Source: Thermoactinomycetaceae bacterium
GTDB taxonomy: Bacteria > Bacillota > Bacilli > Thermoactinomycetales > Thermoactinomycetaceae
Direction: 5' to 3'
Assembly: GCA_025449975.1 (NCBI GenBank)
Contig: JANWIG010000061.1
Coordinates: 1 to 64,000, forward strand
DNA: 64,000 nt
The notes under the pieces were generated by a model. The model saw nothing but the letters and a program-made list of their open reading frames with translations, had not been told where the DNA came from and did not search any database. Of this stretch, positions 8,536 through 56,149 are shown in pieces. The translations under genes were made by a program, and so were the position numbers. Every line of letters starts with the position of its first letter. Position 1 is the stretch's first letter.

Positions 8536-8757
8536 AGAACGGTAACCCAAGTGGCGAGGGGCATTTGAAGACGCAAGGCTTTGATGCGCGACCAAGCGGA
8601 GGGGCGCGGCGGAGGGAAAAAAGCAGAAAACGTGTCTGAGCGGTAGCGAGTTTTTTCCGCCCCCGCAGCTGATCCCCGAAGCGGTCAGAAAAACATCCGT
8701 GCAAGCATCAAGTGACTGGAGACTCAATAGTCCCTGCCCGTCTCCGATCACCATCCA
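8536..8757 (+). repeat. Structured repeat, copy A of three
   Basis: First of three ~220-base copies between dprA and topA. The core at about 8607-8668 contains GGCGGAGGGAAAAAAG, GAAAACGTGTCTGAGCGG and TAGCGAGTTTTTTCCGCC. CTTTGATGC before the core can pair with GCATCAAG after it, and a TTGA...TCAA pair lies outside that. The internal GGAAAAAA/TTTTTTCC pair closes a GC-rich loop. It looks like a non-coding structured element. The short open frames on either strand are not conserved in frame in all three copies. Confidence 0.75.
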
Positions 8758-8783
8758 AAATCAGATCGTCACTCTATTGATCT

Positions 8784-9004
8784 AGAACCATAAACCTAGG
8801 GGCGAGTGACTATTGAAGTCGTAAGTCTTTGATGCGCTACCGAGCGAAGGGGCACGGCGGAGGGAAAAAAGCAGAAAACGTGTCTGAGCGGTAGCGAGTT
8901 TTTTCCGCCCCCGCAGCAGCACCCCGTAGCGTTCAGTAAGGCATCCCTGCAAGCATCAAGAAACTGGTGATTCAAAATTCCTCGTCCCCGGCATCCGTCC
9001 ACAA
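8784..9004 (+). repeat. Structured repeat, copy B of three
   Basis: Second copy, about 248 bases downstream of copy A. The central core is nearly identical to A. The outer stem CTTTGATGC with GCATCAAG is kept, and TTGAA/TTCAA is fully paired outside it. The first ~35 bases (GAGTGACTATTGAAG and CGTAAGTCTTTGATGCGC) match copy C better than copy A. Confidence 0.75.
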
Positions 9005-9044
9005 ACAGGGATCAGTTGGAACAGATCTACCACTTAGAAACTTT

Positions 9045-9265
9045 GAAACGTAAATCATAAGGAGCAGAGTGACTATTGAAGTCGTAAGTCTTTGATGCGC
9101 ATCCTAGCGGCGGGGCATGGCGGAGGGAAAAAAGCGGAAAACGTGTCTGAGCATTAGCGAGTTTTTTCGCCCCCGCAGCCGATCTCCGAAACGACCAGAA
9201 AAACATCCTTGCAAGCAACAAGCACCTGAAGTCTCAAAAGCCCCCGCCCCGACGTCTTACCATGA
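9045..9265 (+). repeat. Structured repeat, copy C of three
   Basis: Third copy, about 261 bases after B. The core is conserved but has one C fewer after the T-run (TTTTTTCGCC), which shifts every reading frame relative to A and B. The outer helix is weakened (GCAACAAG instead of GCATCAAG). It is probably the most diverged or decaying copy. Confidence 0.7.
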
Positions 9266-9272
9266 GCAGAAA

Positions 9273-9316
9273 TCAGGTCGAAACTTAAAATCAACACCAG
9301 AAACTTGCCGACCTGA
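9273..9316 (+). terminator. Stem-loop after the repeat block
   Basis: TCAGGTCG at 9273-9280 is perfectly complementary to CGACCTGA at 9309-9316 around a 28-base loop, followed by TTCAATCTTT. It is a weak terminator or structured element. The remaining 9317-9469 shows only the topA ribosome site. Confidence 0.4.
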
Positions 9317-9469
9317 TTCAATCTTTGGTATTGTAATACGAGTGTTAATTAAGAATCACGATCAAAAACGGCTTTGTATATGGTATAAAAATCCGATCTA
9401 TCCCAAAGAACAAACCTAAGCAAAAACCATTGAATAGAAACAACACTCGTACGAGAGGAGGTAACAAAA

Positions 9470-56002: not shown

Positions 56003-56149
56003 TCATCTGGAAGTTGGATGCGAATAAGTACCGTGAGTTACACGGGAATTTACGCTTGTGGAGTGTAGATCAAACTGTAGTAGCTTGCTTTTAAGGAGCG
56101 AGGCAGGACACGATGAATCAGGAAGAAAACAGAAACTCTGATCGAGTTT
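56003..56149 (+). ncRNA. omegaRNA-like right end of the TnpB element
   Basis: Downstream of tnpB are CGGGAATTTACGCTTGTGGAG and GATGAATCAGGAAG, segments that recur at the 3' ends of IS200/IS605 tnpB genes where the guide RNA scaffold is encoded. The terminal hairpin AAACTC-TGATC-GAGTTT marks the element end. The following TATAAGTTTTTCGTAAC would be the guide. Confidence 0.5.

Follow-up and report, generated by a model that had tools for sequence, protein, structure and literature searches.

The question raised by the locus between dprA and topA of this Thermoactinomycetaceae bacterium is what kind of genetic element stands there three times in a row, and what has kept its structure. A first-pass annotation of the window (that is, the whole stretch of 64,000 nucleotides that was analysed) had left three readings side by side: (i) a structured, possibly regulatory RNA; (ii) a dispersed repeat of MITE-like kind; and (iii) a protein or recombination target linked to the competence gene dprA. 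The answer reached here, which we hold to be probable, is that the copies belong to a non-autonomous MITE-type family of Bacilli with two transposase partners, whose passenger core is under selection to fold as a single strand, probably as RNA.

The array is indeed flanked by dprA and topA, and its three copies are real, each of them being about 193 nt long (approximately 220 bases in the first-pass annotation). All three were among the training copies of the covariance model R1 (14 copies of three genomes: G000, G003 and G024), from which the bit scores in the following list of features derive:

8551 to 8743, + strand: copy A of the structured core (cmsearch with R1, 190.6 bits, full model 1-193)
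8744 to 8798, + strand: linker A-B, partly repeated after the other copies (...CCAAAATCAGATCG...), from flank comparison
8799 to 8991, + strand: copy B of the structured core (cmsearch with R1, 191 bits, full model)
8849 to 8925 (approximate), + strand: inner stems and tip hairpin of copy B, from the consensus fold with compensatory changes
8992 to 9061, + strand: linker B-C, partly similar, from flank comparison
9062 to 9253, + strand: copy C of the structured core (cmsearch with R1, 178.7 bits)
9305 to 9334, + strand: possible topA promoter (TTGCCG, 18 nt, TATTGT), suggested by comparison with G001 and G002

The copies start 248 and 263 nt apart; the first spacing had been annotated correctly, whereas the second had been given as 261. 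Over 199 nt, copies A and B share 84% identity, and over 108 nt both A and C are 90% identical to B, all of which lies far above chance. Since the linkers (55 and 70 nt) are themselves partly repeated, the tandem unit measures about 250 nt. The outer arms exist as described, CTTTGATGC facing GCATCAAG in A and B, while copy C shows one mismatch in its 3' arm (GCAACAAG) and, in the inner stem, the reported loss of one base (TTTTTTCGCC in place of TTTTTTCCGCC). As to the reading frame, one minus-strand frame stays open across both A and B, and none across C. The residues shared by the short minus-strand ORFs of the three copies are accounted for by the likeness of the DNA. Inside the window array no terminator-like site was found, and a terminator role for the array was rejected.

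The element is dispersed well beyond this array. In its own genome (2.52 Mb, 70 contigs), blastn returned 14 matches (E<=0.001), spread over the window's contig and seven others; two of them (C4 and C21) lie at contig ends and two fragments (C51 and C11) overlap the 3' end of an ORF. Other own-genome copies adjoin other ORFs (listed, not annotated) and two congeners carry no copy between dprA and topA, so that the special link to dprA that had been suggested is not supported; no tie of the element to competence was found. By blastn, the element appears in just 3 of 61 genomes, the own genome counted, and plasmid and phage records gave no match. With R1, matches were obtained in 15 of the 23 genomes of the family and 26 of the 42 genomes of the order, with up to 41 in one genome and 29 in G003 (these tallies contain the training genomes: all three in the order, G000 and G003 in the family). 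A second covariance model, R2, built from 47 copies from within the order, matched 46 of 299 sampled genomes of the class with at most eight candidates scored per genome; 28 of the 46 lie outside the order. In the sample of the phylum, the matched genomes (6 of 398) comprise the own genome and five with weak hits. These weak hits (L261-L265, in other families of the phylum) are possibly distant relatives, and the tip motif TGTTTGAG...GAGTT was seen in four of the five loci inspected, the fifth having a like form. A gapped pattern search of named genomes yielded 19 stretches, nine of them in Lihuaxuella thermophila; the other ten, single matches in unrelated MAGs, were taken as chance. The wider search of the genome and its relatives called for by the first-pass annotation hence bears out a MITE-like dispersed repeat, together with the inverted ends and target duplications of relatives described below.

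The arrangement and length of the copies vary. Core copies in alternating orientation occur at L203 (1260-2233), L205 (1270-1944), L184, L188 and L117-L119, often with a strong copy beside a weaker variant, in a manner reminiscent of BIMEs. Furthermore, five copies of G024 (L104, L105, L106, L107 and L108) measure 238-247 nt versus about 193, with extra sequence at the tip hairpin.

Structural conservation, which had been proposed from the three copies, is supported by strong covariation, as judged against shuffled and slid controls that are not tree-aware. In an unfitted MAFFT alignment of 14 copies, the consensus comprises 40 pairs, 21 of which show compensated changes on both sides. Two further alignments were made by structure fitting with Infernal, which favours standard pairs: (i) among the 47 copies, 92.3% of cells are paired versus 69.4% after shuffling, and cells changed on both sides number 407 versus 116 after shuffling and at most 87 with slid partners; and (ii) among 56 distinct copies from outside the order, none of them used in training, 89.7% of cells are paired versus 61.8%, with 549 both-side cells versus 169 shuffled and at most 129 slid. 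Covarying pairs, the lack of which had been named as the outcome that would undo a structural reading, are therefore present. Outside the order, pairing in two short helices is limited to about half of the cells, and gaps make up most of the tip helix. The unpaired stretches of the consensus are AGCGGA on the 5' strand and AGCGGNCAGT and CTTCCTTGC on the 3' strand.

Deviations from the Watson-Crick majority indicate which strand folds. Among one-step deviants, each type counted once per pair and genome in 17 genomes with at least three copies (again in an Infernal-fitted alignment, which favours standard pairs), G-U outnumbers A-C by 70 to 38 (p=0.003), an excess suggesting that it is the + strand that folds. 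An exception is the window's genome (G-U 6 vs A-C 11), as is to be expected for relics. As for the folding energy of a single copy, copy B gave a z of -1.6 against shuffles and its complement a z of -3.0, so single-copy energies do not make the structural case.

A coding role for the core was considered and rejected. A frame is open through the core in 65 of 136 copies on the + strand (33 after shuffling) and in 82 on the - strand (42 after shuffling), the control being crude mononucleotide shuffles. Since no single frame prevails (14 to 38 copies for each), core lengths are spread over all residues modulo 3 (56, 41 and 39) and copy C has no open frame, this excess is taken as an effect of base composition. 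Regarding the neighbouring genes, as called by a simple ORF script, 20 of the 27 G024 matches were examined; in 16 of 19 scorable copies the gene upstream is codirectional, and 12 of these 16 genes have their stop within 50 nt of the core. Elsewhere the orientation of the upstream gene is split without clear bias (31 to 25 and 27 to 28), and the bias, strong in G024 only, was discarded as a general rule.

In relatives, the core is found between the ends of transposable elements, and these ends are of two types. The first type was seen in G039 and G005, where the core lies inside inverted repeats CAG..(C/G)TGTTGATTA with 9-bp target duplications: exact at L113 and L121, with one mismatch at L110 and L122, and with two at L112; at L111 and L120 no 9-bp duplication was found. 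Compared with a reversed control, the end pattern CARKNNTGTTGATTA occurs 51 times versus 0 in G039, 24 versus 0 in G038 and 19 versus 0 in G036. Twelve out of 20 regions examined thereafter hold an end pair of 100-2,500 bp (leaving out three nested alternative pairs), and among these 12 pairs there are seven with an exact 9-bp duplication, one with a single mismatch and four with none. The core is present in four of the seven (L132, L138, L139 and L141). Two of these exact, core-bearing elements, L138 and L139 of G039, have an extra segment of about 50 nt near the 5' side. At L055 of the congener G002, a core copy has CAGTAGTGTTGATTA at its left end, a near copy of it on the right and CTATTTGCT on both sides, the latter duplication having been read by eye.

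An autonomous element with the same ends is L130 of G036 (1,234 bp), whose transposase belongs to the IS4 family (NCBIfam IS4, 207 bits, cut-off 115). This element is itself one of the four end pairs without a 9-bp duplication, and its relatives occur in 9 of the 42 genomes of the order, several of them broken, and not in the window's genome. The IS4Sa row of Table 1 in PMC2266710 gives ends that start with CA and duplications of 8-10 bp; the 9-bp duplications in G039, G038, G035, G005 and G002, and the IS4 transposase of L130, agree with this, whereas the window copies show no such features. In the search for ends of the window copies, those in G014 looked similar, but the G014 duplication is imperfect and the candidate was rejected.

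The second type of ends, CAG..TG.AGACAAA, belongs to G007, a genome of the window's family, and to genomes of f27, a different family within the class; the pattern was found in G230, G262, G309, G007 and G096. When both flanks were compared for 134 copies, 27 showed a direct repeat whose score exceeds the 99% control score; of these repeats, 20 are 20-33 bp long and fold at -6 kcal/mol or better. Such hairpin repeats number 19 in five f27 genomes and one in G007, with 114 of the 134 copies having none (a count that omits one own-genome linker repeat). Several of the duplicated hairpins are followed by a T-run, like intrinsic terminators; their orientation is mixed, because A-runs before the left copy also occur. 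At L224 and L191 the stems of the duplicated target hairpins agree and the loops differ between the left and the right copy.

The corresponding autonomous element was found in G230, in eight copies of 1,545-1,546 bp with type 2 ends, six of them with a hairpin duplication, and its transposase belongs to the IS1182 family (486 bits, cut-off 270). In G007, two ends are recognisable at 6 of 11 loci, no second end being seen at the other five; five of the six two-ended loci have a long duplication, which in four is a clear hairpin. IS1182-family ends and a stem-loop target are features of relatives and not of the window copies. According to PMC5678879, IS1272 targets a stem-loop of no fixed sequence, as do the elements described here, and replaces it without duplication, whereas 20 core copies and six of the eight insertion sequence copies studied here are flanked by a duplicated hairpin. 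PMC5678879 also proposes that an extruded stem-loop would be duplicated if the transposon ends were joined to its 5' feet, and the hairpin duplications at many separate sites support this branch of its model for IS1272-type elements.

The core does not seem to be necessary for transposition. In G039, L135 (165 bp) and L136 (164 bp) have the same ends, exact 9-bp duplications and a different interior, and L137 has the same ends, a duplication with one mismatch and likewise a different interior; an R2 search found no core in any of the three, nor in six autonomous-element loci (L130, L131, L241-L243 and L247). Since elements without the core have moved, its conservation needs another cause. For both end types, the ends are common to core-bearing copies and autonomous elements, so that the homology to a transposon terminus which had been raised as an objection applies to the ends in relatives and not to the core. 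With a core of about 190 nt and a size of 263-309 nt where two ends were recognised around it, the element is short, has no transposase gene and occurs in many copies, as is general for MITEs; terminal inverted repeats and target duplications were found for part of the relatives' copies and not for the window's own.

The window array has probably entered the lineage of its host. The gap between dprA and topA measures 162 nt in G001 and 419 nt in G002, and a search for the core in the gap of these two congeners found none. Directly 3' of the array lies the candidate topA promoter, to which a similar sequence exists in both congeners without the array, a consensus promoter scan having reported no promoter at 9305 to 9334. 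The absence of the core from the congeners and the shared likely promoter suggest entry into the window's lineage, loss in both congeners being the alternative; the array would have arisen by insertion followed by tandem duplication. At the window copies, no ends or target duplication were recognised, the automatic search giving candidates at chance level only, and it is consequently by their core that the copies are assigned to the family. IS4-type and IS1182-type transposase queries found no match in the window's genome. In view of the missing ends, duplication and transposase match, the copies are probably immobile, and they are probably old relics.

Regarding known families, Rfam at gathering score gave no match at the element; the only match in the window lies elsewhere, a RAGATH-18 RNA at 56055-56124 (+) with 57.5 bits against a gathering score of 44.9. 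Permissive Rfam searches at the window element gave sub-threshold hits only, and at 14 related loci, up to E=1, a single sub-threshold snoRNA hit outside the core. Among the papers listed in searches of open-access literature (at most 20 per search), none described the repeat family, most subscription papers lying outside the scope of these searches. The bcr1 repeats of the Bacillus cereus group, ERIC, BOX and BIME/REP are dispersed, intergenic, structured repeats, and in these respects the present family resembles them, down to the alternating orientation of some arrays (L203 and L205); it is set apart, by descriptions and not by sequence, through its lack of an Rfam match, its wide distribution in the class and its two end types. 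Like IS4- and IS1182-derived MITEs, its members are short, non-autonomous, mostly intergenic and present in many copies per genome, with target duplications and with terminal inverted repeats common to autonomous insertion sequences of related genomes. It differs from them in that one covarying core of about 190 nt recurs class-wide with the ends of two transposase families and was not found in the autonomous elements searched. IStrons, as presented in PMC4227781, are group I introns joined to IS elements in a 'molecular symbiosis'. The likeness to these lies in a structured nucleic acid that is moved by different IS families, and the difference in the absence here of an internal transposase gene and of an Rfam intron match. 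On this comparison, the family may be classed as MITE-type by its mobility and placed closest to IStrons in its logic, and what appears to be new is a class-wide core joined to two end types.

According to the explanation favoured here, the window copies would be old and probably no longer mobile, and they would belong to a family of non-autonomous transposable elements in Bacilli, defined by a passenger core of about 190 nt that folds into one long interrupted hairpin. In relatives the core lies between terminal inverted repeats matching those of autonomous insertion sequences, whose transposase would be supplied in trans. IS4-type ends go with 9-bp target duplications. IS1182-type ends are found at hairpins, many of them resembling terminators, and there the entire hairpin is duplicated, as though the element's ends had joined the 5' feet of the extruded stem-loop. 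The core would be kept by selection for the folded + strand, most likely as RNA produced by read-through from neighbouring genes, and possibly to the benefit of the element or the host. Selection on such read-through RNA is favoured with about an even chance of being right, a role of single-stranded DNA being its main rival. Tentatively, and as a possibility that falls clearly short of probable, the core may be a structured-RNA passenger in its own right, of great age in Bacilli and possibly also in other Firmicutes, which joined unrelated insertion sequences more than once, like the introns of IStrons. With its IS1182-type partner it may settle at transcription terminators and duplicate them, so that it is transcribed yet terminated, its RNA having a function for itself or for the host.

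The rival that survives best, although we regard it as rather unlikely, holds that the structure is kept for reasons of DNA, either as a quasi-palindrome whose arms are matched by template switching, or as a cruciform or single-stranded hairpin on which a transposase or a host DNA protein acts. MITEs are often palindromic, which agrees with it. So does the insertion of IS1182-type elements at hairpins, as seen in the flanks studied here and described in PMC5678879. Correction between arms, however, leaves unexplained the consensus of the internal loops (AGCGGA, AGCGGNCAGT and CTTCCTTGC), and coreless elements with the same ends have moved. Moreover, no preference for one strand is expected of a cruciform, whereas G-U deviants outnumber A-C, an excess that a single DNA strand would also show.

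It is improbable that the family is an ordinary MITE, internally deleted from an insertion sequence and functionless, in which covariation merely appears through shared ancestry and a structure-fitted alignment. Size, inverted repeats, duplications, intergenic dispersal and the decay of own-genome copies would all suit such an origin, but in two sets of copies, of which the second took no part in training, covariation greatly exceeds that of the shuffled and slid controls, and it is also present in the unfitted MAFFT alignment, and the core is absent from the six autonomous-element loci. Least credible of all, and largely refuted as stated, is the view that recombination has spread an RNA family with a regulatory role in the host (sRNA or 3'-UTR element), beside which transposon ends lie only by chance. 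Covariation, conserved loop bases and the position of most scorable G024 copies, downstream of a codirectional gene and in 12 of these 16 cases no more than 50 nt from its stop, would suit this view; against it stand exact target duplications at the outer edges of core-holding end pairs and two congeners that lack the array at the corresponding site. A variant, in which transposons captured a host RNA later on, may still hold.

In any case, returning to the passenger core selected as a folded strand, a core that keeps compensatory pairing throughout the class and is seemingly dispensable for its carriers qualifies strongly as a candidate for a new functional RNA with a transposon-like mode of spread. 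Such an RNA-transposon family would account for many of the intergenic repeats in these genomes.
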